A stretch of 64,000 bases of DNA, taken from contig SOER01000005.1 of assembly GCA_021646405.1 (NCBI GenBank), positions 62,001-126,000 on the forward strand, read 5' to 3'. The stretch is from Candidatus Loosdrechtia aerotolerans (GTDB lineage: Bacteria; Planctomycetota; Brocadiia; Brocadiales; Brocadiaceae). The position numbers and the translations under genes were made by a program. Under the pieces are notes generated by a model, which saw nothing but the letters and a program-made list of their open reading frames with translations, searched no databases and had not been told where the DNA came from. Below are positions 43,011 through 62,545 of the stretch, piece after piece. Position 1 is the stretch's first letter. The number at the start of each line of letters is the position of its first letter.

Positions 43011-43192
43011 GCTTTACCTTCCCTTCTCCAAACCATACTGTTTGGAATTTAGGATTTGTTTTTTGGAATCGGAAAAGGAATTTGACAGGTTTTTCATACA
43101 ACGGCATGGTTGATTCCTTTTTTCATATATAAAAACCAAGCTCACTGGCGGGGATGGAACGTAGTGGAATCCCCGCCCAGTACAGCGCACTG

Positions 43193-46100
43193 TTAAGTCA
43201 TTTCTTTTACAAGTCTGACCCTTTCATTTTTTGCTTTGTATTTTTCTATGCGTTCACACTCCTCAAGAACGCTAACGCTCTGCATGACCCGCCTTTCAAA
43301 CTCCACCCGGGGATTTCCACGTGTCAATACTCCCAATTCTTTGAGCACACGGGATGTCAATGAATGCAGCGTGCAAGACTGATTCGGACACTTCGACAGA
43401 GCCTGAAGGATAGCAACCTGTATTTCTTCTGCGGATATTTCCTTTGCCCGACGCCCTGACGGGCTGAGGCCATCCTTTGGACCATTTACTGAGGAGTCCT
43501 CATTGTTGTCAACGCTGTCGTCATCTTTGGTAACGTCACAATCGAATTCGCCGCAATCCTCTTTCCGTATATCGGCTTCGGGGATTACATCCACGCACCG
43601 TGACATGGGAAAGATCTCCCGTGCCTTCAGCACCTGCCAAAGTCCTTCCAGCGCATCATCTCTGTTAGAGTAAAAGGCCGATTCCCTCACACGGAAGAAT
43701 TCCCAACCGCACCGCTCGAGTTGTCTTTGTCGCTTCATATCAGCTTCGTACCGGTCAGCCCCATGCCAATTGTCACCATCGCATTCTACCGCCAGACGCG
43801 CAATCCCGCCTTCAATTACAAGATCAATATGATATGTATCGACCGGAAATTGAGGAATCAAGTGATATCCCTTGCGACGAATTTCAAGAGCAACATCGAC
43901 TTCAAACCAGGAACCATTGACCACTCCTGGCTGATGAAAAGGCCTGGGAGGCTTTTCCAGCGAACGGTTGGCACGAAGCGCCTGATTCTCTATATAGCTC
44001 CAATCTACCGGATCATTAATGGGCGAGGTTCCTTGCCTCTCGAAGAATGCAAGTAACTTCCGCCGAAGGCAAGAAGCACTGAGGTCATCGCAAGTGACAG
44101 AGTGGAATAGAATCATCTGATCCCGGGCGCGGCTTGCTGCAACATTGAAGCGCCGTTCGTCGGCCGCCTTCGTGAGAGAACCGATTCTTTCGTTGTTGGC
44201 CGTAACAAGCGAAAGCAGCATAATATCGCGTTCGTCACCCTGAAAACTGTAAGGATTGCCGCAGACCAGGCGCCGCCGTTCCATTTCCCCGGCACCCAGA
44301 CGTTCAAGCAGATGGTTCTCAATCAAAGCCGCTTGTGCTTCACCCTGAAGAACAACCACGCCAATCGATTTATTATCATATCGGCTGTCGCCACACAGTT
44401 CGACAATCCTCTCAACAATAGCTTTGGCCTCCGGGCGATTGATTGTATGATTGTTTGAACCTTCGCGATACCCTCCACTTACAAAGACATGCTCAAGAGG
44501 AATCAATCGGTTCGGCCCGTATTGCCTCAAGGGAATCAGTGACGTTTCGGAATAGCAAAGGTCATTGCTGAAACGAATGATTTCCGGCATACAGCGGAAG
44601 TGCTCGCGCAGGGTAATTCGCCGGGTTCCGTAGCGAAGTTTTCCGTGGTCGAACAGACTGCTCTCAATATCGAATGACGATTTGAAGTGGAAATCGTAGA
44701 GAAATTCTTCCATCAGGCGATGCACGGCATCGCGAGGCAACCCCACGGCATCCGGACTGATCTGCTTATCGTCACCAACAATCAATATCTTCTTGCCCAG
44801 ATAGAACAGTGGAAGCGCCTCGACCCCACATTGCGAAGCCTCGTCAACAATGATGACGTCGAACATACCGGGCACAGGGTCCACCGTGTCCCAAACACGG
44901 TGTAACGGCATGACCCATGCCGGAACCGCATCACGGCATTGATTGAGGTGTCGTTGTGCCTCACGCCTGTGGCGTGATGCGTGCTTTCCTGTTCCTTTGC
45001 CAAGCCGCCGCATGGATTGCTGCCAGGCTTCCATGTGACGGCGATGCCGATCTTCAATCCGTCCTGGAGAATCAGGTGAGAAACAGAACGACCAGGCATG
45101 AAGCGAAGCTAATGTTGCGATAATGGCGTTGATCTCATCCTCAATCTGTTTAGTACGCCTGGTGAGAGCCGGTACATCCTCCCGCCGGACGTATTCCTCA
45201 ATCCAATATCGTGCCTGTGCCCAATGCCAGGCGTCCCCGATATGTTGAAATCGTTCGTCCCAAAATGATTCAGTGCAAGTTCGCTTCAATTCATTCGTGA
45301 GCTTTGGGAGCAGACAGCGCAATTGCAAAAGGTATTCATCCATCCACTGAAGACGCTGACGCTCCTTTTCCAATTCCTGAATCTTAATCGTGGCATTCAC
45401 GAACCCATCTGCATTTCGGCAACGAATCGCGTGCAGCAATTCATTCGTCATCGGATGTGCGTCTTTCATGGCGGCAGTGGACGATACCGGGGCCTCAATG
45501 CTTTGTATTTCTTCAGTGATAAGCCGCTTGCGTTGACGGACCTGTGCAAGGCGGCACGATGCGATCATTCTTTCAATCTGAGATTCGTCAGCCCAGACGG
45601 GTTCGGTTACATCCGGACACTGCCGTATAGTCTCACGGCATTTTTCAATAAGCGTTTCAAGCGACAGGGCGTTTTCAAGAGCATCGTGCAGTGATTTAAG
45701 CGTGGTCAGTTGCAGGGCGTAAGGACCCTGAGTTATATCGGATCGACCCGCCCAAAACCCCCACGCCTTCTCACATTCGATCCGGACATGCAATGCATCG
45801 GAAAGATCTGAGAAATGCCTGGCAGTGGAACAGGGAAGCCCGCCAATGCGCACGGTCTTGATCACATAAAGCCGCTCTTTCACCACTTTCGGACGAAATG
45901 GTCCCCAACCCAGTTTCCCGCCATTCTTCATGTGCTCTTTCAGTTTGCAGACGTCTTTATACAGCGCCCTGATATTGGTACTATCCGGAAACTCAACTCC
46001 GGTATCGTCCGCGACGGTAACCAGCGTTTCGATTGCAGCGACAGTGTCTCCCGTGACTCGGGAGAGTTCTCGCCATAAGGATGAATTGCCTCCCAAAACA

Positions 46101-48106
46101 TCACAAAGCGCATCGCGCATCCACCCGTACGGGGATGCCATCAGATTTCTATGCATGCCTTGAAAACCCAAAAGTGCTTTACGAATTTCTTCAATGGTTG
46201 CGGCATTGCTTTTTGATAACAACTCAGCGATATGTTCATCAGCCCCGCTTGCTGAGATATGCTCCTCCTCAGTCGACCTTGTCTCGTTCTGTACGAGATT
46301 GGTAAAATGCTCGGAGGACGGTAAGGTTTTGGGCCAAACAAGGCTCAATTCTCCGCGTTTTTCCGGTATGAAATATCGAAGGGCCGTAAGAACACTATGC
46401 ATGTCGCTTACGGATATCTGACAGATCTTATCCAGGGGGATGGTATCTGTAAACCATCCGTAGACACTTCGGTCACGGTTGACGGCTTCCGCGATTCGGG
46501 CTGCGGTGCCTCGATAGGTATCCTCTGCAATGGAATGGAAATGGGTTTCAGATTCCCGGATATCGAGGAGTCGCCGGTCGACCCTGGCTCTTTCCTCCCG
46601 GAGCTTTCGGAGGCGCTCTTCAAGTTCTGTGCGCTGTCGTTTGGCATGCTCTTCGTTCCATTCCTCATTCTTGCGGAGAATACCGCCAACACTGGATTCC
46701 AGAGAGCGACGCTCTTCAAGACCGCTGCCAAGTAGGTTGATGCAAAGGGGGTGCAATTCAGACGGTACGAGACCTTCAAGAACCTGAAGCGCCCGCGGCG
46801 TCTTAGCTGTGATAAGCGTTCGTTGTCCCGTGGCAAGCAAGTGGCAAATCAGATTCGCAATCGTATGCGATTTTCCCGTGCCGGGCGGCCCCTGCACAAG
46901 AACACCGCCTGACGCCCGAATCTTGTCAACAATACGGCGTTGCTCTTCGTTCGATGGCTTTGGGAAAAAGATCTCTCCATCGAATGTACTGTTTGGATTT
47001 CCCGGGCCATCACCTGTTTCGCGATCACCCTTCAGACGAATCTCGGCAAGGTCTGCGAATTCGCCGGGAATACCTTCACCTTTTTCTATCCGCTCCCTGA
47101 TCCGCTTCAATGTTTCGGTAAGGCCTTTGGTGGATCGCTTTCGCAAGATCAAAGCGGGGGCATATTCGACAATTGGCTTCTCTGAGGCACAGACGTCTTT
47201 CGCTTCCAGTGAGTCGTCATAATCGCCCCGCGAGTTAATCGAATGAACCAGGGCCTGAAGTACGCCTTCAATGCATCTCTTTTCCCACGGGTCGTCTTCG
47301 GCTCCGGTCAGCGAAGACTTTGCTGCCTCTTCGGCACGCGCTGGTTGGTCCCCGATATCCAACATATCGAGTTCGGGCCGTAGTTTGGTACCTTCGGTGT
47401 GCGGCCGGACGGTAAATTTACCCAAACGGGCTTCAAACTCGAGGATGGCGTCCGCGACAATCAAGTGGCGCCGGATATGTTGTCCGGTGGGCGTCTGCCA
47501 GGTTAGCAGGCCCATACCAAGCACGAGTTCGTATTCTTCGCCAAGCCGGAGTTGCTCTTGATGTATTGCAAAGAGTACGGAATATACTTGGTGGACCTTT
47601 TCCCACGCATTATGCTCTTCCGTCCACGGCAACCATTTATCTTTAATGTACCGATCCCATACCCGCTGAGTTTCAGGATGTTCTTCGAGGCGTTCGGTAC
47701 GCTGTATACTTTCCGGCTGATCCGATTCTTCGTGCCAGTCGGGATTTTGAACTTGACGGATAATTTCCGGGAGGAGTACGGGCAAATCGCCCTTGTTGCC
47801 GAGCGCCGATTGGTTCACCCAGTCTTTGCATTGAGCGGGAACGTCGGGTAATTCCGGCTCGCGCCGGTTTTGCACTTCCAGCCATTCGTCAGGCTCATGT
47901 TCCTCATCGCGCCCCCATGCCTGTGTGAAGCATCCCCGCTCGTGCGGAATGCTTGATATCCAAAGGACCTTCTCGTATTCGGCAATATCGCGGATCAGCT
48001 TAGTGCGCAGTGAAGCAAGCCGTGTCAAATAGTTGACAAGCCGAACGGCTTTCTGTACTTCAGGGCTATCTGTCTGTTGATCGCTCAAGGGTTTCCTTGT
48101 CTCCAT
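43193..48106 (-). CDS. Giant SF1 helicase with C-terminal nuclease and winged-helix domains
   Basis: 1637 residues. Residues about 1-350 are an N-terminal region of unknown fold. Walker A VQGPPGTGKSHTIANL is at 404-419. The DEAD-like Walker B IIVDEASQ lies near 1083, followed by GDDKQISP, QGDERDIML and a motif VI VAASRARDQM, as in UPF1/DNA2-type SF1 helicases. Around 1410-1480 is a restriction-endonuclease-like fold (YHIDLVIEGG...LAVECDGDNWHG, with Asp and ExxxD), of the DUF559/MTES_1575 type. A winged-helix tail ends the protein. The architecture is that of anti-phage helicase-nucleases; exact system not determined. G+C-rich, likely acquired. Confidence 0.82.
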   Translation of the reverse strand: METRKPLSDQQTDSPEVQKAVRLVNYLTRLASLRTKLIRDIAEYEKVLWISSIPHERGCFTQAWGRDEEHEPDEWLEVQNRREPELPDVPAQCKDWVNQSALGNKGDLPVLLPEIIRQVQNPDWHEESDQPESIQRTERLEEHPETQRVWDRYIKDKWLPWTEEHNAWEKVHQVYSVLFAIHQEQLRLGEEYELVLGMGLLTWQTPTGQHIRRHLIVADAILEFEARLGKFTVRPHTEGTKLRPELDMLDIGDQPARAEEAAKSSLTGAEDDPWEKRCIEGVLQALVHSINSRGDYDDSLEAKDVCASEKPIVEYAPALILRKRSTKGLTETLKRIRERIEKGEGIPGEFADLAEIRLKGDRETGDGPGNPNSTFDGEIFFPKPSNEEQRRIVDKIRASGGVLVQGPPGTGKSHTIANLICHLLATGQRTLITAKTPRALQVLEGLVPSELHPLCINLLGSGLEERRSLESSVGGILRKNEEWNEEHAKRQRTELEERLRKLREERARVDRRLLDIRESETHFHSIAEDTYRGTAARIAEAVNRDRSVYGWFTDTIPLDKICQISVSDMHSVLTALRYFIPEKRGELSLVWPKTLPSSEHFTNLVQNETRSTEEEHISASGADEHIAELLSKSNAATIEEIRKALLGFQGMHRNLMASPYGWMRDALCDVLGGNSSLWRELSRVTGDTVAAIETLVTVADDTGVEFPDSTNIRALYKDVCKLKEHMKNGGKLGWGPFRPKVVKERLYVIKTVRIGGLPCSTARHFSDLSDALHVRIECEKAWGFWAGRSDITQGPYALQLTTLKSLHDALENALSLETLIEKCRETIRQCPDVTEPVWADESQIERMIASCRLAQVRQRKRLITEEIQSIEAPVSSTAAMKDAHPMTNELLHAIRCRNADGFVNATIKIQELEKERQRLQWMDEYLLQLRCLLPKLTNELKRTCTESFWDERFQHIGDAWHWAQARYWIEEYVRREDVPALTRRTKQIEDEINAIIATLASLHAWSFCFSPDSPGRIEDRHRRHMEAWQQSMRRLGKGTGKHASRHRREAQRHLNQCRDAVPAWVMPLHRVWDTVDPVPGMFDVIIVDEASQCGVEALPLFYLGKKILIVGDDKQISPDAVGLPRDAVHRLMEEFLYDFHFKSSFDIESSLFDHGKLRYGTRRITLREHFRCMPEIIRFSNDLCYSETSLIPLRQYGPNRLIPLEHVFVSGGYREGSNNHTINRPEAKAIVERIVELCGDSRYDNKSIGVVVLQGEAQAALIENHLLERLGAGEMERRRLVCGNPYSFQGDERDIMLLSLVTANNERIGSLTKAADERRFNVAASRARDQMILFHSVTCDDLSASCLRRKLLAFFERQGTSPINDPVDWSYIENQALRANRSLEKPPRPFHQPGVVNGSWFEVDVALEIRRKGYHLIPQFPVDTYHIDLVIEGGIARLAVECDGDNWHGADRYEADMKRQRQLERCGWEFFRVRESAFYSNRDDALEGLWQVLKAREIFPMSRCVDVIPEADIRKEDCGEFDCDVTKDDDSVDNNEDSSVNGPKDGLSPSGRRAKEISAEEIQVAILQALSKCPNQSCTLHSLTSRVLKELGVLTRGNPRVEFERRVMQSVSVLEECERIEKYKAKNERVRLVKEMT

Positions 48107-51544: not shown

Positions 51545-51551
51545 GTTAGGC
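51545..51551 (+). other. attI x attC junction, integron 1
   Basis: GTTAGGC, the consensus recombination core; the cassette would start after the first G. The sequence between 51409 and 51545 is the probable attI region. Confidence 0.6.
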
Positions 51552-51585
51552 GGATTGGCGCAGCGCACCGATTAAGGCGAATGAC

Positions 51586-51924
51586 ATGAATCGAAGCACG
51601 GAGAACAGTGGAGTCGAAGCAGCCCGAGCGAGATGGCTTGAGGCGAGCCACGCAGCTTCAAAGCTCGCCGCTGAGCTCTTTCAACCGGGTAGCGGCTACG
51701 GAGACCCGGATGCTCGGGCGTCGGATGAACATCGGCTTGAGTCCGCGCGCCTGGACGCGGAACGCCTCTTCCGTGAGTATCACGACCTTGACCGGCGCGA
51801 GATGGAACTGAAGATGCTCGAACTTCAGCGCTCTCAGCGCTTGGCGACTTGGGCGTCGTTCGCGGTCGCTGCCGTCGTTGGATTGGCAACGGTGGTTAGC
51901 ACGTTGGTGGCGTTGTTCAAGTGA
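51586..51924 (+). CDS. Cassette 1: small C-terminal membrane-anchor protein, unknown
   Basis: 112 residues. An N-terminal charged, helical part (RARWLEASHAASKLAAELF, DAERLFREYHDLDRREMEL) is followed by one membrane helix (WASFAVAAVVGLATVVSTLV) at the C-terminus. No family recognised. The gene sits alone in a cassette bounded by GTTAGGC (51545) and the attC at 51947-52006. It is much more G+C-rich than the flanks. Confidence 0.65.
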   Translation: MNRSTENSGVEAARARWLEASHAASKLAAELFQPGSGYGDPDARASDEHRLESARLDAERLFREYHDLDRREMELKMLELQRSQRLATWASFAVAAVVGLATVVSTLVALFK

Positions 51925-51946
51925 AGGCCGGTCGAGCACGAACACC

Positions 51947-52006
51947 GCCTAACAACAGCATGCAGCGGACGGCGCTTCGCGCCGCCGCTGATGCTGATCG
52001 TTAGCT
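51947..52006 (+). other. attC site (59-be), 60 bp
   Basis: Starts GCCTAAC and ends GTTAGCT, with long imperfect arms CAGCATGCAGCGG.. and ..CCGCTGATGCTG around a CGCTTCGCG centre. Size and core sites match a classical integron attC. It separates cassette 1 from cassette 2. Confidence 0.9.
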
Positions 52007-52030
52007 TCACATCACGGGAGGCCATAATCT

Positions 52031-53185
52031 GTGCTCTTTGCAATTGATCCTGTCGGCAAGAAAGCCACCGCGGTCGAGACTGCCTCGCTCGCGGATCTCG
52101 GTCTGCGGGAAAGACACGATCTTCAGGAATGGGTGTTATCTAATCCGACAATCCTCGGCGAGGACCTCTTCATCATTACCGATGAGTTCTCGCGGTTCGA
52201 TCGGACCCGTGAACGTCTTGACCTCCTCGCTCTAGATCGACAGGGGAAAGTCGTAATCGTGGAGCTCAAGAGATCCGCCGTTGGCTCTCACGCGGAACTT
52301 CAAGCAATCCGGTACGCCGCATATTGCTCAACTATGACGCTTCAAGACCTCGCGGAAATCCATGCCGAGTTTCGAGCGCGGCGGAACGTGGCGATCACGG
52401 CCGAAGCTGCAGCAGAGGCGATGCGGGAATTCGTGGAGGACCCAGACTTCGTCGAAGTGGACAGCAAGCCACGAATCGTGTTGGGAGCCGAGACATTTCC
52501 GGCGGAGATCACGGCGTCCGTCCTGTGGCTGCGGGAGTGTGATATCGACATCAAATGCATCCGACTCCGTCCGCACCGTGTTGGCGAACATCTACTGCTC
52601 GACGCATCAATCCTCATCCCTCTTCCAGAGGCGGAATCATTCATCATCCGCCGTGAGAAGAAAGAAGCGAAGCTCGAACGCCAAGCTCGCGAGGCAGCCA
52701 ATTCTGAGGAAATTCAAGACCTCTACGGAAAGATAATCGAGCAGGCAGCCAATCATCCGGCCTTTCGCAGAAAGGCGCCACCGAAGTCATCCGCCCTCTA
52801 TTACAGGAACATCGGCCGCCGAAGCTATTTGGCCGCCATTCGTCGAGCCGGCGAAATGCGCATCGAATTGTACATCGACGAAGCCGAGAAGGAGTTCAAT
52901 CGCAATCTCTTGGCGGCGCTAGAAGAGCAACGGTCCAAAATCGAAATTGATCTTGGCGTGAACCTGGTGTGGGACGGATCGGGAAATACTCGGAAGTGTG
53001 CAATCTTACTTTCGAGAGAGCCGCAGGCTGATGATACGATCGAGGATGTGGCAGCTTGGGCAGCAACCTGGCTCACGCGTTTTTACGATGTCTTCGCCCC
53101 ACTTTACGAAAGAGCCATCCGGCGCGCCCGCGAGATTGCAGGTGAAGAACTGGGCCCCGAATCCGGGCTGGCGTCACTGAGCTAA
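52031..53185 (+). CDS. Cassette 2: PD-(D/E)xK nuclease (NucS/DUF91-like)
   Basis: Starts GTG at 52031 after GGGAGG, 25 bp after the attC. Residues about 30-85 carry LQEWVLSNPTILGEDL, RLDLLALDRQG and VVIVELKRS, the Asp and ExK catalytic set of NucS/DUF91-type nucleases. A middle and C-terminal region (SRKAPPKSSALYYRNIG-like and IELYIDEAEKEFNRN) resembles a DUF4268-type domain. 384 residues. The stop codon TAA lies inside the first core site of the next attC, typical of cassettes. Confidence 0.8.
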   Translation: MLFAIDPVGKKATAVETASLADLGLRERHDLQEWVLSNPTILGEDLFIITDEFSRFDRTRERLDLLALDRQGKVVIVELKRSAVGSHAELQAIRYAAYCSTMTLQDLAEIHAEFRARRNVAITAEAAAEAMREFVEDPDFVEVDSKPRIVLGAETFPAEITASVLWLRECDIDIKCIRLRPHRVGEHLLLDASILIPLPEAESFIIRREKKEAKLERQAREAANSEEIQDLYGKIIEQAANHPAFRRKAPPKSSALYYRNIGRRSYLAAIRRAGEMRIELYIDEAEKEFNRNLLAALEEQRSKIEIDLGVNLVWDGSGNTRKCAILLSREPQADDTIEDVAAWAATWLTRFYDVFAPLYERAIRRAREIAGEELGPESGLASLS

Positions 53186-53273
53186 CAAACGCTTGCAGGA
53201 GACCGGCGGCCGGCCATCCGAGCATCTTGCTGACGGCGGTGAGGCCGCCGGCTCCTGAAGCTTGACGTTAGGC
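53181..53273 (+). other. attC site, 93 bp
   Basis: Core GCTAACA (53181-53187) and GTTAGGC (53267-53273). Arms AGGAGaCCGGCGGCC and GGCCGCCGGcTCCT pair with few mismatches. Lies exactly between cassettes 2 and 3. Confidence 0.9.
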
Positions 53274-53285
53274 TTTAAATCAGCA

Positions 53286-53738
53286 ATGGCAGAGACATAT
53301 TGCTTTCCAGATGATGTGGCTGACCTTAAAGATAGGGTGCTGAAAGCTATATCTCCTATTGCACCGATTACTGACGAGACGAAAACAGAAGACAAATTCC
53401 TGTTTAACGCACAAAGAACAGATGCGGGTCGTTCATTGCCAGAGTATTACCTTTGCTATTTCTTGTTGGTAGAGCTGCTCGGTTTTAAGAATCTTGGCCA
53501 ATTTGAAAAAATATCGTGGTCAGTGCCAATTGATTTCAACGGTGTGGCATTTCTCATTGAGCATAGAAAATTCGGTGTTGGTGTGTTTGCGCATGATGCC
53601 AAGAGTCAAGAAGGTGAAGCAAAGGAGATTGTTAAGAGGATCCACAAGGGAGTGAAATTGGCAAGACCGGAGAACAAAACAGGGTCACCCATTAGAAGGC
53701 TTTTGTCAAGCGAAAAAAATAAGGTGGAAACTCAATGA
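53286..53738 (+). CDS. Cassette 3, gene 1: hypothetical partner of the Mrr-like nuclease
   Basis: 150 residues from the ATG at 53286, 13 bp after the attC core. Sequence is soluble and mixed alpha/beta (RSLPEYYLCYFLLVELLGF, WSVPIDFNGVAFLIEHRKFG). The C-terminus is basic. No family recognised. Its stop overlaps the nuclease gene start (ATGA, 53735-53738), so the two are probably coupled and act together. Confidence 0.65.
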   Translation: MAETYCFPDDVADLKDRVLKAISPIAPITDETKTEDKFLFNAQRTDAGRSLPEYYLCYFLLVELLGFKNLGQFEKISWSVPIDFNGVAFLIEHRKFGVGVFAHDAKSQEGEAKEIVKRIHKGVKLARPENKTGSPIRRLLSSEKNKVETQ

Positions 53739-54616
53739 AACTTAATAGCCAGATGCCGAAATACCATGAACTCATGAATCCACTACTTAAAGCTCTTCAT
53801 GAGTTAGGCGGCTCTGGGTCTATTGAAGAGATCGCACAAAAAGTATCAGAATTGTCAGGCTTACCAGAAGATATATTGAATCTTCCACATAACCCGGAAA
53901 AAAGCAGTCAGACTGAAATTGAATATCGTTTGGCATGGGCACGCACCTATCTAAAAAAATATGGTTTATTGGAAAATTCAGATAGAGGTATTTGGCTAAT
54001 TGTTCCAGAAAAACGCAATGTAAAATCGGTTGATCCTCAAGTTGTTGTAAAAACAGTACGAGATGAACACAAAAAACAGAAACAAGCCATCGAAAAGGAA
54101 AAATTACCTGAAGCAGATGCAGATACAGATATTGAAATCCCAGATGAGGCTGAGTCTTGGCGTAGTACCCTCCATCAAATCCTCATACATGAAATATCTC
54201 CAGATGCTTTTGAAAGGTTGGCAAAAAGAATCCTAAGGGAATCTGGTTTTGTACAAGTTGAAGTAACCGGTCGTTCTGGGGATGGTGGAATCGACGGTAA
54301 AGGTATAATGCGGTTAAGTGGCTTGCTGAGTTTTCACGTAATTTTTCAGTGCAAGAAATATAAGGGAACTGTTACTGCCTCAGAGATACGTGACTTCAGA
54401 GGTGCAATGATAGGGCGAGCTGACAAGGGCCTGTTTATTACAACAGGCACTTTTACTCGTGACGCTATCCGAGAAGCTACAAGAGATGGTGCACCACCAA
54501 TTGATCTTGTTGATGGGGACCAACTCGCCGACAAGTTAAAGGAATTGGGCCTCGGAATAAAAAAAGAAATGGTGGAAAAAATTTCAGTTGATACCGAGTG
54601 GTTCAAATCAACATAA
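53735..54616 (+). CDS. Cassette 3, gene 2: Mrr-family restriction endonuclease
   Basis: 293 residues. An Mrr N-terminal winged-helix domain (residues about 1-95, ALHELGGSGSIEEIAQKVSE, ARTYLKKYGLLENSDRGIW) precedes an Mrr catalytic domain (about 145-285): FERLAKRILRESGF, VTGRSGDGGIDGKG (catalytic Asp) and VIFQCKKYKG (QxK). Mrr enzymes cut modified DNA. No attC follows; the array is cut by a REP/RAYT fragment from 54688. Confidence 0.88.
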   Translation: MKLNSQMPKYHELMNPLLKALHELGGSGSIEEIAQKVSELSGLPEDILNLPHNPEKSSQTEIEYRLAWARTYLKKYGLLENSDRGIWLIVPEKRNVKSVDPQVVVKTVRDEHKKQKQAIEKEKLPEADADTDIEIPDEAESWRSTLHQILIHEISPDAFERLAKRILRESGFVQVEVTGRSGDGGIDGKGIMRLSGLLSFHVIFQCKKYKGTVTASEIRDFRGAMIGRADKGLFITTGTFTRDAIREATRDGAPPIDLVDGDQLADKLKELGLGIKKEMVEKISVDTEWFKST

Positions 54617-54951
54617 TAACAATCAAAGATATTATCATCTTCGCTTTATGATGCCTCAGGTTATTTATCTTACTATTTGAATAATTAGGGACACATCCCG
54701 TTTATTCTTCCTTTTTCTTTATCGGTCTGCCCTCTGGTCTGAATAGTAATCTTCTGGCCTAATTTTTCCGACAGACAGGACATGGAATCTTCTCCACCAA
54801 GCGGTTTTCCCACCATAAATACCTGACTTTATCTATCATGCATGAGTGATATCTGCATTCCCATAGACGACCTGTTCCAAAGTATTTGAAGTCTTCCTTT
54901 TCGTAAAACCTCCACTTTATCTCAAAGGAGACATCGAAACGATATTCCTGC
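54617..54951. other. Interval with REP and RAYT tail fragment
   Basis: REP hairpin at 54688-54699, then a RAYT C-terminal fragment on the minus strand (54700-54814, GKPLGGEDSMSCLSEKLGQ). 54815-54951 shows no gene. Confidence 0.65.
54688..54814 (-). pseudogene. RAYT C-terminal fragment (copy B)
   Basis: Same C-terminal tail as the 50.8-kb and 57.5-kb copies, cut short at 54814. One REP hairpin at its 3' end (54688-54699). Confidence 0.7.
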
Positions 54952-54980
54952 TTGACGTTATTATCGTTAACCGTTATTAT
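54952..54980 (+). promoter_or_regulatory. Promoter for higBA, probably leaderless
   Basis: TTGACG (54952-54957), 17-bp spacer, TATTAT (54975-54980). The expected transcription start, 7 nt on, coincides with the GTG start of higB at 54987. Confidence 0.7.
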
Positions 54981-54986
54981 GGTACT

Positions 54987-55268
54987 GTGATAGTATCATT
55001 CAAATGCATAGAAACTGAGAAAATATGGAACCAGGAACATTCCCTGAGATTTCCAGTTTCTATTCAGCGTATCGCTTTAAGAAAACTTTTTATGCTTCAC
55101 AGGGCAAAGGAACTGCAGGATTTAAGAATACCACCTGCAAATCGCCTGGAAAAACTCAAAGGTAACAGAACCGGGCAATACAGCATACGAATAAACGATC
55201 AATGGAGAATTTGCTTTATCTGGAATGAAGCAAATGCATCCGATGTTGAAATTGTTGATTATCATTAA
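54987..55268 (+). CDS. higB: HigB-type RelE-superfamily toxin
   Basis: 93 residues. RelE-fold mRNA interferase that cleaves mRNA on the ribosome. Seen are the helix KLFMLHRAKELQDLR, the strand LEKLKGNRTGQYSIRIN with basic residues, and QWRICFIWNEA near the C-terminus. Start GTG at 54987; no Shine-Dalgarno, in line with a leaderless transcript. The antitoxin follows by 14 bp, so the order is toxin first, the HigBA arrangement. Confidence 0.9.
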   Translation: MIVSFKCIETEKIWNQEHSLRFPVSIQRIALRKLFMLHRAKELQDLRIPPANRLEKLKGNRTGQYSIRINDQWRICFIWNEANASDVEIVDYH

Positions 55269-55282
55269 GAAAGGAATTTAGA

Positions 55283-55588
55283 ATGAAAAAGATTTCTAAT
55301 ATACACCCAGGAGAAATTCTTGAAGAAGAATTTCTCAAAGTATTTTGTATTTCTGCATACAGACTTGCAAAAGAAACCAAAATGCCACCTACAAGGGTTT
55401 CTGAAATAATAAAAGGAAAAAGGAGAATAACAGCAGATACGGCTCTGCGTCTTTCAAAGTTCTTTGGCACAACGCCGGATTTCTGGCTTGGCCTTCAAAT
55501 GGAGTATGATTTAAGAGAAGAAAAATCTGTAAAAGCAAAAGAAATTGATTCGATAAAAAGGTTAAAGTCACTTCCTGTAGTTGGTTGA
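55283..55588 (+). CDS. higA: HigA antitoxin (helix-turn-helix, XRE type)
   Basis: 101 residues. HigA N-terminal HPGEILEEEFLKVF, then the HTH SAYRLAKETKMPPTRVSEII and RRITADTALRLSKFFGTTP, with DFWLGLQMEYDLR at the end. It neutralises HigB and represses the operon. AAGGAA precedes the ATG. Complete. Confidence 0.93.
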   Translation: MKKISNIHPGEILEEEFLKVFCISAYRLAKETKMPPTRVSEIIKGKRRITADTALRLSKFFGTTPDFWLGLQMEYDLREEKSVKAKEIDSIKRLKSLPVVG

Positions 55589-55986
55589 GTCATTGGGGTC
55601 TTGATTCTTGTTCTCAAGCATTTCCTGTTAAAATATTGTGTATAGCAAAGAGGAATGCCCTGCATCATCTTGTAAAGCGCGGTTTCTTTAAGGGTTTTAC
55701 AAGCAGGTGCACGTGATTTGTCATAAGGCAGTAAGCCAGTATTGACGTTTCTTTTTCGGATGAGTATCTTTCAAGCAGGGATATATATACCTTTGAAAAT
55801 CTTCTCTGTTCAGAAAGACCTTTTCCTTGCTGTTTCCTCTTAGGATTACATGATGGGGATATCCTGTCACTACCAATCTTGCTATTCGAGGCATGTCTCA
55901 CTTTATCTCATCTCGCTATCCATCTTGTCAAGAATTGGGATGTGTCCCTATTATTCCCCCTATTATTCCCCCTATTATTCCCCCTA
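55589..55986. other. RAYT fragment, REP and a 12-bp tandem array
   Basis: No intact gene. Features inside are listed separately: RAYT remnant 55615-55894, REP 55937-55948 and tandem array 55946-55993. Confidence 0.6.
55615..55894 (-). pseudogene. RAYT N-terminal fragment 2
   Basis: ATG at 55894 opens MPRIARLVVTGYPHHVILRG and continues to the TNHVHLLV catalytic HUH motif, but a 2-bp TA insertion at about 55785 and another shift near 55690 break it. The C-terminal half is absent; the homology ends just after higA. REP hairpin at 55937-55948 upstream. Confidence 0.75.
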
Positions 55987-55993
55987 TTATTCC
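55946..55993. repeat. Four-copy 12-bp tandem repeat
   Basis: CCCTATTATTCC repeated exactly four times (48 bp). It starts inside the REP hairpin and ends where the intI remnant has lost its continuation, so slippage at the REP may have replaced integrase sequence. Confidence 0.8.
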
Positions 55994-56082
55994 CAATGAA
56001 CATAAGCCTCTTCTGTCCTCATGCTGTAGTGCTTTACCCTGATTTCATCACGCACCTGATCCAGCAGTTTCGGTTTAGACAT
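55987..56082 (-). pseudogene. Integron integrase intI, N-terminal remnant 2
   Basis: A 31-codon open stub: MSKPKLLDQVRDEIRVKHYS, then MRTEEAYVHW and a stop created by the tandem repeat. This is the start of an IntI-type tyrosine recombinase, better preserved than remnant 1. The remaining 290 or so residues, with the catalytic Arg, His and Tyr, are missing. It is divergent from the cassettes to its right, as in integrons. Confidence 0.78.
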
Positions 56083-56112
56083 AATGATTGCTTTTTGCTT
56101 CAAGAAAAAATA

Positions 56113-56142
56113 TTGAAATGTTTTGGTAGTTTAAGGTATATT
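56113..56142 (+). promoter_or_regulatory. Candidate cassette promoter Pc of integron 2
   Basis: TTGAAA (56113-56118), 18-bp spacer, TATATT (56137-56142), directed into the cassettes. The 56160-56250 stretch resembles 51485-51551 of integron 1, so it is probably attI. Confidence 0.5.
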
Positions 56143-56244
56143 ACCAGCAAAATGTTCGTGAACATTATTATATACCCAAATAACCGTATATCAAGTTATC
56201 AGTAAACGTATTATATGTACTAATAGCCGTAAAATAAGACAGAT

Positions 56245-56658
56245 GTTAGTCGAAACTTCTACGCCGCCATCAATGAACGTGAAAGGTTGAAACAATTTCT
56301 CGGCTTTTTCCTATTCGTCGAAAGGTATACCCACATCACCTATAAGACATTGAGCTACGAAAGCCACGCACATACAGCATTCAACATGCCTGCACGAATC
56401 GAAGAACCAATGAGGAAATTCTTTGAGCAGCGCTTCTTTCATGATTCAAAGAATCTTTCACAGCAGTTCCATTGGTGCGCGATGTTTGCATGGCCAAGCT
56501 TGGACGCTAAGAATATGGATGTGTTTCTGGAGATTAAGAGAGTGCGGGATCTGCTGACACATGGCGAACACATTGAAGAGTCTGCGCTACCTGTCGAAAA
56601 AACAAAAACCCTCGCTCTGAAACTGTTTAGAACAAGAGGCCGCGAAGTCGTCTCGTAG
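56245..56658 (+). pseudogene. Integron 2 cassette: HEPN-like protein lacking a start
   Basis: The frame is open from about 56245 to 56658, beginning right at the GTTAGTC junction and encoding NFYAAINERERLKQFL and then FFEQRFFHDSKN ... VFLEIKRVRDLLTHGEHIEE. The RDLLTH sequence fits the RxxxxH active-site motif of HEPN ribonucleases and lies in a helix as expected. No ATG or GTG with a ribosome site exists; only a TTG at 56287. The attC at 56691-56787 follows. Either truncated on insertion or translated from an unusual start. Confidence 0.5.
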
Positions 56659-56690
56659 CGAAGGAGCAAGTCGGCATAGATAAAGATGCA

Positions 56691-56787
56691 GCTAACATCC
56701 GCATGTAGGCGGACACACCAAAATGTCACGCATTTGCTGGGACAAAATGCGCGCCATTTCAGCGTGCCGCTGATGCGGGCGTTATTC
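56691..56787 (+). other. attC site, 97 bp, divergent core
   Basis: GCTAACA at 56691-56697 and a variant core GTTATTC at 56781-56787. Arms ATCCGCAT / ATGCGG and GGCGGACAC / GTGCCGC pair. Between the HEPN-like cassette and hicAB. Confidence 0.75.
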
Positions 56788-56833
56788 ATAATAAAATAAT
56801 CAAATAACCATTAATTTCTGGTAAAATATAGCA

Positions 56834-57094
56834 ATGGGTAAGCATGAGAAACTTTTACTTAAAATTCTTAGTGGAACATCCGATGCGAGTATTCAATTTG
56901 AAGACTTATGTAACCTGCTAAAACACTTAGGTTTCGAGATGAGAATTAAAGGTAGCCATCACATATTCAGAAAAGAAGGGGTTATAGAAAAGATTAATCT
57001 TCAGCATGAGGGTAACATGGTAAAACCTTATCAGGTTAAACAAGTAAGAAATGTTATAGTGAAGTATAAACTCGGAGGGAATATTGATGTATAA
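56834..57094 (+). CDS. hicA: HicA mRNA interferase toxin
   Basis: 86 residues, slightly longer than the usual 60-80. Double-stranded-RNA-binding-like fold with the catalytic His in IKGSHHIFRKEG, and HEGNMVKPYQVKQVRNVI at the C-terminus. Cleaves mRNA when unbound. Probably the next cassette after the attC at 56691. It overlaps hicB by 8 bp. Confidence 0.92.
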   Translation: MGKHEKLLLKILSGTSDASIQFEDLCNLLKHLGFEMRIKGSHHIFRKEGVIEKINLQHEGNMVKPYQVKQVRNVIVKYKLGGNIDV

Positions 57095-57299
57095 ATACGA
57101 AATTATTATTTACTGGAGCAACGAGGATAATACCTTTGTAGCAGAAGTTCCTGAACTTCCTGGGTGTACAGCACATGGTAGCACTCAAGAAGACGCATTA
57201 AAAAATGCTAAAGAGGCAATTCAATTATGGATTGACACAGCTAAGGAATTTAGCGATCCTATACCTGAACCTAAGGGAGGAAGATTGATATTTGCTTAA
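57087..57299 (+). CDS. hicB: HicB antitoxin
   Basis: 70 residues, start ATG at 57087 inside the end of hicA (GGAGGG upstream). The partial RNase H-like fold is typical: EVPELPGCTAHGSTQEDALK and KEAIQLWIDTAKEFSDPIP. No separate DNA-binding domain, as in short HicB proteins. Neutralises HicA. Confidence 0.92.
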   Translation: MYKYEIIIYWSNEDNTFVAEVPELPGCTAHGSTQEDALKNAKEAIQLWIDTAKEFSDPIPEPKGGRLIFA

Positions 57300-57313
57300 A
57301 ATAAAACCGGCAT

Positions 57314-57360
57314 GCCTAAAAAATCCAGCGGACGGCAAAAGGCGCCGCCGCTGGATTTTT
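57314..57360. terminator. Strong hairpin after hicB: terminator or degenerate attC
   Basis: AAAATCCAGCGG and CCGCTGGATTTT arms with an inner GGC..GCC, followed by T-rich sequence. It begins GCCTAAA, close to an attC core, but no clear GTTRRRY ends it. It could be both. Confidence 0.55.
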
Positions 57361-57488
57361 ATCGTGTGTGCCGTGCATGTTACAATGCATGGGAGTGGAA
57401 GTCTCCTGTCCGGGCAGATGAGGCCGAAGGACAAACGAAACCCCAAGGGCATCATCGTGAGGTGATGTCTGGAGATAATGGATAGTTG

Positions 57489-58435: not shown

Positions 58436-59176
58436 TTAGTCCCGATTGGCTTCAGCGGTGGTTAGGTCTCTTGATAAAACATATGCATTTCTACCATTTA
58501 TTTTTATAATATCAACAATACCACAATCCTTTAAAGCATTTGACAAATCATAATACGTTTTGGATTTGTATCCTATTCTTTTCATATGACCAACTACATC
58601 ATTCATAAACACTGGTTTAGATGATTGCTTCAAAAAACTTATTAGATGGTTTGCTTGGCTACAAACCCTGCCGCTTTTTAACCTCTTGGCCATATTTTGT
58701 CTAGCTAAGTTTCGTTCGCTTTGTATTGCTGTTTGCGGCATCGACTCAAAGATCACTTTTTTATCATCTTTAATATCTACCTGTAAGTCTTCATTAAGAA
58801 TATTATTTATAAGTTTTTTATCGTTCTTCTTTTTTAAGTATTCAAGCAAATAATCCGATGCTAACTCTATATATTCAATGCCAAAATATTCAAAAGAACG
58901 TTTAAAATTTTCAGGGATTCTATTTGCAGCTAGTACTACCCTAATAGGTATTTTTTCCCCTTCCAATATATGCCCAGCATAATCCAGTAACTGGGCAATA
59001 TCTTTTCGCGTTGCCACTAATTTAACTTCAACAACTAGTTTTTGGCCATTGATATCTTCAAATAAAATGTCCAGCTTCTTTCCTTTAAGATAAACCTGGT
59101 TCCCAATAAATTTAATATCCTTTTCAATTAAATCAGGATACTTAATCAGAATTTTCTCTAATGTCTTTTCGTCCAT
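58436..59176 (-). CDS. Cassette-borne DUF91/NucS-like nuclease
   Basis: From the ATG at 59176 (MDEKTLEKILIKYPDLIE; the open frame extends further only into the attC). Residues about 35-60 give KKLDILFED and QKLVVEVKLVA, the Asp and ExK of a NucS/DUF91 PD-(D/E)xK nuclease, then QLLDYAGHILEGE. The C-terminal half may be a winged-helix domain (FMNDVVGHMKRIGYKSKTYY). AGGTG precedes the start. About 246 residues, intact. It directly follows the minus-strand attC. Confidence 0.8.
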   Translation of the reverse strand: MDEKTLEKILIKYPDLIEKDIKFIGNQVYLKGKKLDILFEDINGQKLVVEVKLVATRKDIAQLLDYAGHILEGEKIPIRVVLAANRIPENFKRSFEYFGIEYIELASDYLLEYLKKKNDKKLINNILNEDLQVDIKDDKKVIFESMPQTAIQSERNLARQNMAKRLKSGRVCSQANHLISFLKQSSKPVFMNDVVGHMKRIGYKSKTYYDLSNALKDCGIVDIIKINGRNAYVLSRDLTTAEANRD

Positions 59177-59197
59177 AAAACACCTTCTCCCAAGAGA

Positions 59198-59268
59198 CCC
59201 AACGGCCAAGCATTACCTGCGGCTGCGAAGCAGAGCGGAACAGCCGTCAGGTGCATGCCTTTGTTGGC
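59198..59268 (-). other. attC site on the minus strand, 71 bp
   Basis: Read on the minus strand: GCCAACA core, arms GGCATGCACCTGaCGGCTG and CAGCCGcAGGTaATGC, and the CGTTGGG core. The adjacent stop codon of the upstream gene (59273-59275) lies 5 bp before it, as is usual for cassettes. Shows a second array in opposite orientation. Confidence 0.85.
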
Positions 59269-59272
59269 CACG

Positions 59273-60141
59273 CTATTGTTTGGAAACAAATTGCAGAAAT
59301 TCCCGGACTTTATCCTTCTCCTTGAACGCTCCTTCGACACGGTCACCGTTTGAAAATGTGACGAGGATTTCATACTTTCGGAATTCACCAGATCCCTCGT
59401 AAATCCGATGTTCATCGAGAAATCTAATCGCATCGTTGATAGTCACAAACTCGTTTGATCTGCCATAAAGAGGAATGATGACAATCCTCTCGACCATGCG
59501 ATTCAGTCGATCACTGAGTGCGACCATGAATTTATCGAGTCCTCCCTGATTGGCAACCACAAGATGTCTCTTTATCCTCTCTGTCATGCACTGGGGAGCC
59601 GCCTCGATCTTCTTGACACATTTCTGAAAGGCTGCATCTGGGGTTGTTTCATCAAAGGCAATATCAATCCCTTCTGCAGCAAAAGCGGCAACTAACGTTT
59701 TATATGGGAAGTAGAGCACTTGAAAACCAAGCGAACGAGCTGTTCAAGAGATCCTTCAGTGAAGACACCAGACAGAACAGCACCGAGAAATGGATTGGAC
59801 CACTGGAATTTTTCAGCCAGAGGTAAAATCGCTCCTTGAATCTCCTGCGCCTTATTCCGTGAGTGCTTAGTGTATCGACGCCAAGCAACTTCAATAAACG
59901 CAACGGGGATGCCTGTTATTGTGTCGTTACCATCTCTTTCCAAAACATAGTCAAGATCGTGAACATTGCCATAAGGGTCTTCCCATGTAACCTTCTTCCC
60001 TTTCCTCGACTTGCGTGATTTCTTTTGATGATCGAGGTACAGATTCTTCTCCCTTGCGAAGTTCGATAGAAACGGCTCAATGACAGCCTCGAGGAGATTG
60101 CCAATGATTTGTCCGAATTTGTGAGACGGGGATTCAGCCAC
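59273..60141 (-). pseudogene. Type II restriction endonuclease, single frameshift
   Basis: GTG start at 60141. Frame 1 (to 59692) contains DLDYVLERDG and IPVAFIEVAWRRYTKHSRNK, an Asp...ExxxR catalytic region of a PD-(D/E)xK-like restriction enzyme, and FLGAVLSGVFTEGSLEQL. A one-base loss near 59728 moves the continuation, GFQVLYFPYKTLVAAFAAEG, into another frame, which runs to 59273. Restoring the base gives about 290 residues. It starts 7 bp after the end of the methyltransferase gene. Specificity unknown. Confidence 0.75.
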
Positions 60142-60147
60142 GTGTGT

Positions 60148-61472
60148 TTACCCTTCGATCCAAAGCCTGCCCTCCTTCAAGGGGACTCTGTGTTTTCTAT
60201 TCTTCCACTTGATGTTCCGATCCCGAATCTTCTCAAAAGAATAAGATCTAAAACCTGCGGCAAGAGCCAACTCCCCCAGCCATGTGTCAACATTCAGATA
60301 GACACCATAAGGTGCAGAATCGCCGATAACGAAACACACGAACGTCCAGGCCGGCAAATTTGTCTCAATGACTTGAAAACGAGACCGAGATCCCTGAAGT
60401 ACGCCGCTGCCATCGTATGATAGCTCTTTCTTCCCCCCTTAGTCTCCCGGACTTCCGCTAATGTATGACAAGCGGTTGAAAGGTCTCTCCTGATTGGATC
60501 TAACACAGGTTCTGCGAGCAGCTCATCAAGTAACAGTTTCTCTGCAGCGGCATGCTGAGAGCATGAGCGGATAAGATGCTGGCGAACAGCATTTTGTAGG
60601 TCTCCCCATCCATTGATTTCACCCCAGAAAGTCATTTCCAGGCGTGTGGCGTCAGCATAGTCGTAGTTGTTCGGATAGGGAGGAGATGTCACAACCGCAT
60701 CAACTTGAAGTTGTGAACAGCCCTCCGGGGCACGTGCATCAGTCATCAGGATGTGGCTATCTGAGCACCAACCGTTACGCTGGATGTACTCCACATCCTG
60801 CAATATCTCAGTAGCCTTGAACTGAAACGCCGCTAACGGTGTTTGGACGCTTGCCTTATTCTTATTTGGCAATACGTACTGCCACTGAGCAGTTCCTACT
60901 CCGCTACAGGGTCGAAGAATTGCAGTCAGAAGAAGCCAGAGCAGTTCTGATTCGGGTGTTTTTTTATCAAACTCAGCCAAGAACACGTCTCGCATCACAA
61001 ATAGCGGAGACAGGACTTCTGGTGTGTAACATTTGGTTAGGAGGGATGAAGCCTCTTTCAACTCGATGGACAACTTCTCAGGAATGGAGTCTGCAAAACG
61101 CTGGAAGAGTGAACTGAGAGTTGATGAATCAACCTGGATGCCACGGAGTTTTGCATTGGCAATCCGGTAAACGAATGGATGTGTTTCAAACCCCCAACTC
61201 TGAACGTGTTCGGCATCACAGGCAAGCAGGGTAGTGCCCACGCCGGAAAAAGGATCCAGGACAACGAATGATGGCGATCCGTCGCGACGCTCACGAATCA
61301 ACGATCGGACCCAATCGGCGGAAAACCCAGCAGAGTACCGAAACCAACGGTGAACCGGGAGCGCCATATTATCGACAAAGGCACCAGAACGCCCATTGAC
61401 GCTGGCGTCTGTGACCGGTACCGTAGCTTCCATATCAAAAAGGCTGCGTTGGTATGAAAGAGATATCTTCAT
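60148..61472 (-). pseudogene. Type II DNA methyltransferase, single frameshift near the C-terminus
   Basis: SAM motif VLDPFSGVGTTLLAC at about residues 72-86 and catalytic motif VVTSPPYPNNYDYADATR at about 263, so an amino-methyltransferase (SPPY, N4-cytosine or N6-adenine). The reading is intact to CRPGR, then a one-base loss near 60342 shifts it; the next frame gives FVCFVIGDSAPYGVYLN and WLGELALAAGFRS up to the stop at 60148. Likely inactive or C-terminally altered unless the shift is a sequencing error. Partner of the adjacent endonuclease. Confidence 0.8.
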
Positions 61473-61885
61473 ATTTCAATAAGTTTCTGTATGCCTCATA
61501 TAATCCTCATCTCAGAAGAATGTCTGCAAACGTTGATTTCCTCGCTGAGTAATATGATGTGACACTTCCGGTACAACCACACGTGCAATCCTTGACATAG
61601 GCTTATCTTAATTATTTTAATAACAAAGTCAATAATTAAGTATGGTGTCCCAAAAAATCCCAGAATTCAAACATATTACGAAGAAGTTGATGGCATCAAA
61701 TCTTTATTTTTTTGACAAATTTACCATTTTGAAACAGGCTGTCCGAGAATTCACTTTTTCGCGGTCTCCCAAGTCATATGTCCTTGTAAATCAATATCTG
61801 AAATTTCATGAATTTGCATTCTCGGACAGCCTGTCAAGGTCTGACCCCTATCCGATAGCAGAAAGCGATCAGGTGAAGCGACTTG
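61473..61885. other. Interval with a palindromic repeat
   Basis: No gene supported. A 15-bp inverted pair AGGCTGTCCGAGAAT (61736-61750) and ATTCTCGGACAGCCT (61818-61832) brackets 67 bp; the predicted plus-strand ORF here is a read-through of it. Confidence 0.6.
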
Positions 61886-62241: not shown

Positions 62242-62545
62242 TAATTACTCAGGTTCAGGGTTGGCTTGTTCCCAAACAGACAGGCTGGGTCAAATGGATT
62301 CCTTTGTCTTAAAAGTGGGGAATAACCCTTAAAAATTATCCATTTTATCTTAAATTTATAGCTCTTAATCCTTAAAGTGGGGAAGAAACGCCTCAAAATG
62401 TACGAAAATTGTTTATTTGACCCAGCCTGTCTGTTTGGGAACAAGCCTGTGGCAGGCCAAGTAGAGACGCAAGATTTTGCGTCTCTACTAAGGCTCAGCT
62501 TGATGCATATGCCCCTAACCCTGAACCATGAACCTGAATAATTAC
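62242..62545. mobile_element. MITE-like palindromic element, copy 3, with a nested palindrome
   Basis: Outer ends TAATTACTCAGGTTCAGG and CCTGAATAATTAC are inverted repeats. The ATGCATCAAGCTAAG-type arm is at 62490-62515. Inside, CCCAAACAGACAGGCTGGGT and its complement form a second palindrome around AT-rich DNA, suggesting that one element inserted in another. It truncates a PIN toxin gene. Confidence 0.82.

Follow-up and report, generated by a model that had tools for sequence, protein, structure and literature searches.

The minus strand of the 64,000-nucleotide stretch of DNA analysed here (the window) carries a genuine attC site at 59197-59269. With a probability of about 0.85, this site closes a cassette in which a DNA methyltransferase (MTase) gene is followed by a restriction endonuclease (REase) gene, a truncated cassette with a NucS-domain nuclease gene comes next on the same strand, and together they make up an inverted mini-array without an integrase of its own, next to a plus-strand array with many restriction and toxin-antitoxin genes. 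The features of the minus-strand segment are as follows.

58436-58465, minus strand: attC truncated to its left half, which coincides with the last 30 bp of the nuclease gene (29 of 31 columns identical to the attC at L137:15557-15587)
58436-59176, minus strand: gene for a nuclease that has the NucS C-terminal domain; a probable second cassette (Pfam NucS_C, 27.8 bits; below the NCBIfam cut-off)
59197-59269, minus strand: attC closing the restriction-modification (R-M) cassette (40.4 bits with covariance model R1, the site being outside the training set; fold)
59273-60141, minus strand: type II restriction endonuclease gene (tblastn against an intact homologue; PADLOC REase_II on the intact homologue L048)
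60148-61472, minus strand: DNA methyltransferase gene (tblastn with the L047 MTase; N6_N4_Mtase; PADLOC MTase_II on the homologue P0002)
61475-61660, minus strand: repeat-derived sequence in place of the cassette 5' end (partial copies on contigs C27 and C23)

The attC site and its predicted mobility

The minus strand of 59197-59269 reads GGCCAACAAAGGCATGCACCTGACGGCTG...CAGCCGCAGGTAATGCTTGGCCGTTGGGT. Its R'' (GGCCAAC) and R' (GTTGGGT) boxes are complementary and carry the AAC...GTT core, and the site has a central stem (ACCTG-(A)-CGGCTG / CAGCCG-CAGGT) and a 15-nt loop. The extrahelical A that sets the orientation lies in the 5' arm (minus strand) and is in register with model R1, and the predicted G^TT crossover point falls within GTTGGGT (59203-59197). 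Because R'' is one base off RYYYAAC, a strict motif scan does not recover this site. An Rfam scan of the whole window found nothing, and DNA and pattern searches of the organism's own genome recovered no further copy.

Model R1 was trained on 21 attC sites from the integron-integrase surroundings of same-family genomes and from the organism's own integron on contig C11. The training sites were picked by fold scan and by eye, their loops were trimmed, and none was taken from the window, to avoid circularity. Paired changes in the training alignment were far above those of shuffled and slid controls. With this model the site scored 40.4 bits in minus orientation (E 3.3e-7 in the window) and ranked sixth in the genome-wide search (E 1.7e-5), all R1 E-values being rough owing to a short calibration. 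Three of the five higher-scoring sites in the genome lie within ~3 kb of the integron integrase (IntI) gene, and the other two are plus-strand sites of the window. At E 1e-4, R1 had no match in 83 of the 118 planctomycete genomes sampled, and matches of this size are therefore not background; all seven sampled members of the window's family had a match. The first-pass annotation had read a minus-strand attC at 59198-59268, and the covariance-model scoring that it proposed bears this reading out; the poor attC fold that it named as evidence against the site did not show in this independent model, with which the site scores well.

Folding of the single sequence was modestly better than that of its shuffles (z -2.8 and -2.6), and the R boxes were unpaired in the minimum-energy fold. 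Both the modest z (about -2.7) and the unpaired boxes would also fit a palindrome that arose by chance or a transcription terminator downstream of the REase gene. We regard this explanation as very improbable, as sequence and structure fit an attC model trained elsewhere (E 3.3e-7), with the R boxes, the extra base and the spacing all in register. Moreover, no T run follows the hairpin, and in other genomes these genes are closed by different attC sites. Folding of the bottom strand, a further check proposed by the annotation, gave an R-box pairing probability of 0.16, among the lowest of 27 sites (0.3 to 0.99 in most of the other attC sites compared), because GGCCAA competes by pairing with TTGGCC. 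Such low pairing predicts weak recombination at this attC. In the Vibrio cholerae integron, experimental inversion caused cassettes to be excised more often and was costly while the integrase was active (PMC11023631).

The restriction-modification pair as a two-gene cassette

The MTase gene directly precedes the REase gene, whose stop codon lies 3 bp before R'' in the same orientation as the attC. The annotation had placed a stop codon 5 bp before the site. It had also called the upstream genes a type II R-M pair, and this assignment is supported by family membership through intact homologues, which PADLOC places with REase_II (PDLC03525) and MTase_II (PDLC03306); the Pfam domain of the MTase is N6_N4_Mtase. 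The window-type REase differs from the known pair in belonging to no Pfam or NCBIfam family. Its structure model (pLDDT 89.7) gave only weak fold matches to the solved nucleases AF1548 and BstEII.

Neither gene is intact in the assembly. Comparison with homologues by tblastn located one frame change in each, near 59737 in the REase gene (frames 59692-60141 and 59273-59719) and near 60345 in the MTase gene (first frame 60294-61472). The frameshifts may be assembly errors, in which case the R-M system would be intact and active in the organism. A draft genome in 61 contigs, a single change per gene and the good conservation of the remainder of both proteins are consistent with this. On the other hand, both genes are hit, and a broken REase is also found in several other loci (L047, L056, L091 and L092), which also fits real decay. 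We hold assembly error to be somewhat short of an even chance, the present data fitting either reading. In view of the frameshifts and the competing hairpin, the present function of the R-M genes and the mobility of their cassette are doubtful. In an intact copy, the methyltransferase would mark a DNA motif and the endonuclease would cut unmarked incoming DNA, which may amount to an anti-phage role.

Relatives of the REase were found at 48 places in genome contigs from many phyla, two archaeal lineages included, and the MTase is directly upstream in nearly all of these ~48 loci. An attC directly follows the REase in L055/L142 (from the window's own family; 29 bits) and, by fold scan, in a gammaproteobacterium (L065), where the right half of an attC also stands before the MTase at the contig start. 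In two desulfobacterial lineages (L060 and L052) an attC or attC-like site is directly before the MTase, and L052 has a weaker attC candidate after the REase. In the closest relative (L047) an attC-like sequence was recognized after the REase by eye only; the window shares 82% DNA identity with this locus over 2.2 kb, from the R'' box into the MTase gene, as would be expected of a mobile cassette. Since the pair is flanked by attC sites in several unrelated genomes, the MTase and REase genes are, as judged from these sequences, a two-gene integron cassette. The annotation had suggested looking for the same cassette elsewhere and had taken an absence of integron neighbours from all related contigs as evidence against its reading; such neighbours exist. 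Many other loci have the pair with no detectable attC, and so it is not a cassette everywhere. The REase relatives found on plasmids are distant, at about 48% or less. The pair also occurs in the archaea Methanoperedens (L063) and Methanocellaceae (L075), and these two loci gave no attC match.

The upstream bound of the cassette is missing: the R1 search of the window found no attC upstream of the MTase, whereas L052 and L060 do have a bounding site there. A 28-aa reading upstream of the MTase had been taken, by eye only, for the start of an IS200/RAYT transposase, and was rejected as library searches were negative. A perfect 33-bp inverted repeat with a 119-bp spacer is present at 62263-62447.

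The NucS-domain gene and its truncated attC

The nuclease ATG lies 20 bp past R' of the attC. The annotation had placed a NucS-like nuclease right after the site; the position and the NucS C-terminal domain are confirmed, but the protein is not NucS. Its match to the NCBIfam NucS model reached 44.9 bits against a cut-off of 216 and covered only NucS positions 129-247 of 250, so that the N-terminal half is lacking. Its placement with PDC-S11 in PADLOC is weak.

The last 30 bp of the nuclease gene, stop codon included, resemble the left half of an integrase-adjacent attC in a relative (L137:15557-15587). The alignment has 29 of 31 columns identical and a score of 26, compared to a maximum of 18 among 60 shuffles, and the right half of the site at 58436-58465 is missing. 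The truncated attC suggests that the NucS-like gene probably came next in the inverted array as a cassette of its own, its attC having been cut by a later rearrangement. The annotation had the attC at 59197-59269 join the R-M system to the nuclease; the pair and the nuclease probably belong instead to two distinct cassettes. No relatives of the NucS-like protein were found in plasmids or viral contigs, only distant ones occur in two same-family genomes, and no relative was found that carries the NucS-like gene as an intact cassette. It is hence the truncated attC that argues for the cassette history of this gene.

Capture of the R-M cassette alone at a secondary site in the chromosome, next to an ordinary, non-cassette NucS-like gene, would account for the single intact minus-strand attC, and in L055 the pair and its attC indeed adjoin thiC-like chromosomal genes. 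We consider this unlikely, given that the final 30 bp of the nuclease gene match half of a relative's integron attC and that its start codon follows the attC at a cassette-like spacing of 20 bp. In favour of the inverted mini-array we counted the R1-scored attC, the stop codon 3 bp before R'', the conserved pair, the attC-flanked relatives, the span of identity with L047, the truncated attC, the plus-strand array together with an IntI in the genome, and the GC of neighbouring genes, which ranges from 0.32 to 0.61. Counted against it were the presence of only one intact inverted attC, with none upstream of the MTase, the frameshifts, the pairing probability of 0.16 and the want of a relative with an intact NucS-like cassette.

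The plus-strand array, the integrase and the family

A plus-strand cassette array at 51545-57369 of the window has two strong and two degenerate attC sites, and its genes include a DUF4268/PDC-S11 gene, an Mrr-type restriction gene, HigBA and HicAB. Its sites are as follows.

51947-52006, plus strand: attC (61.8 bits, best of the genome)
53180-53273, plus strand: attC (45.5 bits genome-wide; 14.3 bits as a partial match in the window with filters off)
56691-56786, plus strand: degenerate attC-like site (21.1 bits, E 0.58 genome-wide; fold)
57314-57369, plus strand: degenerate attC-like site after HicAB (23.1 bits, E 0.0038 in the window)

Direct repeats of 56-175 bp with 89-96% identity are found in and around this array, and could have mediated rearrangement. 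Repeat pairs are at 55690-55957/57941-58206, 54678-54812/57479-57612 and 51000-51115/57687-57802, and one copy encodes a piece of an IS200-like transposase (Y1_Tnp). In the proposed course of events, an integron integrase presumably inserted the R-M cassette by acting on the bottom strand of its attC in folded form, which here is the plus strand. A later rearrangement at repeats would have cost this cassette its 5' end and the second attC its far half, and the same event may have inverted the segment. Elsewhere in the window, a weak attC-like site on the minus strand at 43127-43198 (23.3 bits, E 0.0034 in the window) is directly after a gene for a 1637-aa helicase/MTES_1575 nuclease at 43193-48106.

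One clear integron integrase was found in the genome, on contig C11 and not on the window's contig. It lies in C11:126250-130353 (L009, L010) with three attC sites on the opposite strand; a cassette-position gene there resembles a family 1 glycosyl hydrolase by eye. Further attC matches far from the integrase are at C22:103764-106484 (two on the minus strand, 2.6 kb apart), C51:195-254 and C23:32727-32836. The annotation had proposed an inverted array or an integrase-less CALIN, a cluster of attC sites lacking an integron integrase (IntegronFinder, PMC9024848). The truncated attC at the nuclease end and the lack of an IntI nearby agree with this, although the genome as a whole does have an integrase. 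With two strong plus-strand sites and the site at 59197-59269, the window holds at least two attC sites together with cassette genes and no integrase nearby, as CALINs do, but its sites are in both orientations, and the minus-strand part (one intact and one truncated attC) would not by itself reach the two-site threshold for reporting. CALINs are common (PMC9024848, PMC9668308). Chromosomal integrons have likewise been reviewed as anti-phage biobanks (PMC12409362), and the window resembles them in having type II and type IV restriction genes as cassettes; it differs in its host, an anammox planctomycete, and in that the R-M cassette is inverted, truncated and frameshifted. That the host is an anammox bacterium follows from the hydrazine synthase alpha domain encoded in its genome, which 14 control genomes lack; a genome of the same family is labelled Planctomycetota.

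Cassettes of this kind are already known, and the present case adds one that carries defence genes, in a CALIN of an anammox planctomycete. One type II R-M pair is thereby seen as a cassette of integrons not only in anammox planctomycetes but also in desulfobacterial lineages and a gammaproteobacterium. Anammox genomes can thus be counted among those with defence genes on integrons, by a mechanism already known; among the papers listed by a literature search on integrons and anammox, none is by its title a study of anammox integrons. Within the window's family, attC matches at E 0.001 were present in all 33 genomes (1 to 28 each), and a strong integrase match in only 15 of these. We tentatively suggest that dispersed attC cassettes are numerous in this anammox family, often far from an integrase and in either orientation, and that they act as a scattered store from which restriction, nuclease and toxin-antitoxin genes are exchanged with other phyla; the inverted array of R-M and NucS-domain genes would be one example. 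This family-wide picture may outweigh the single site in worth.
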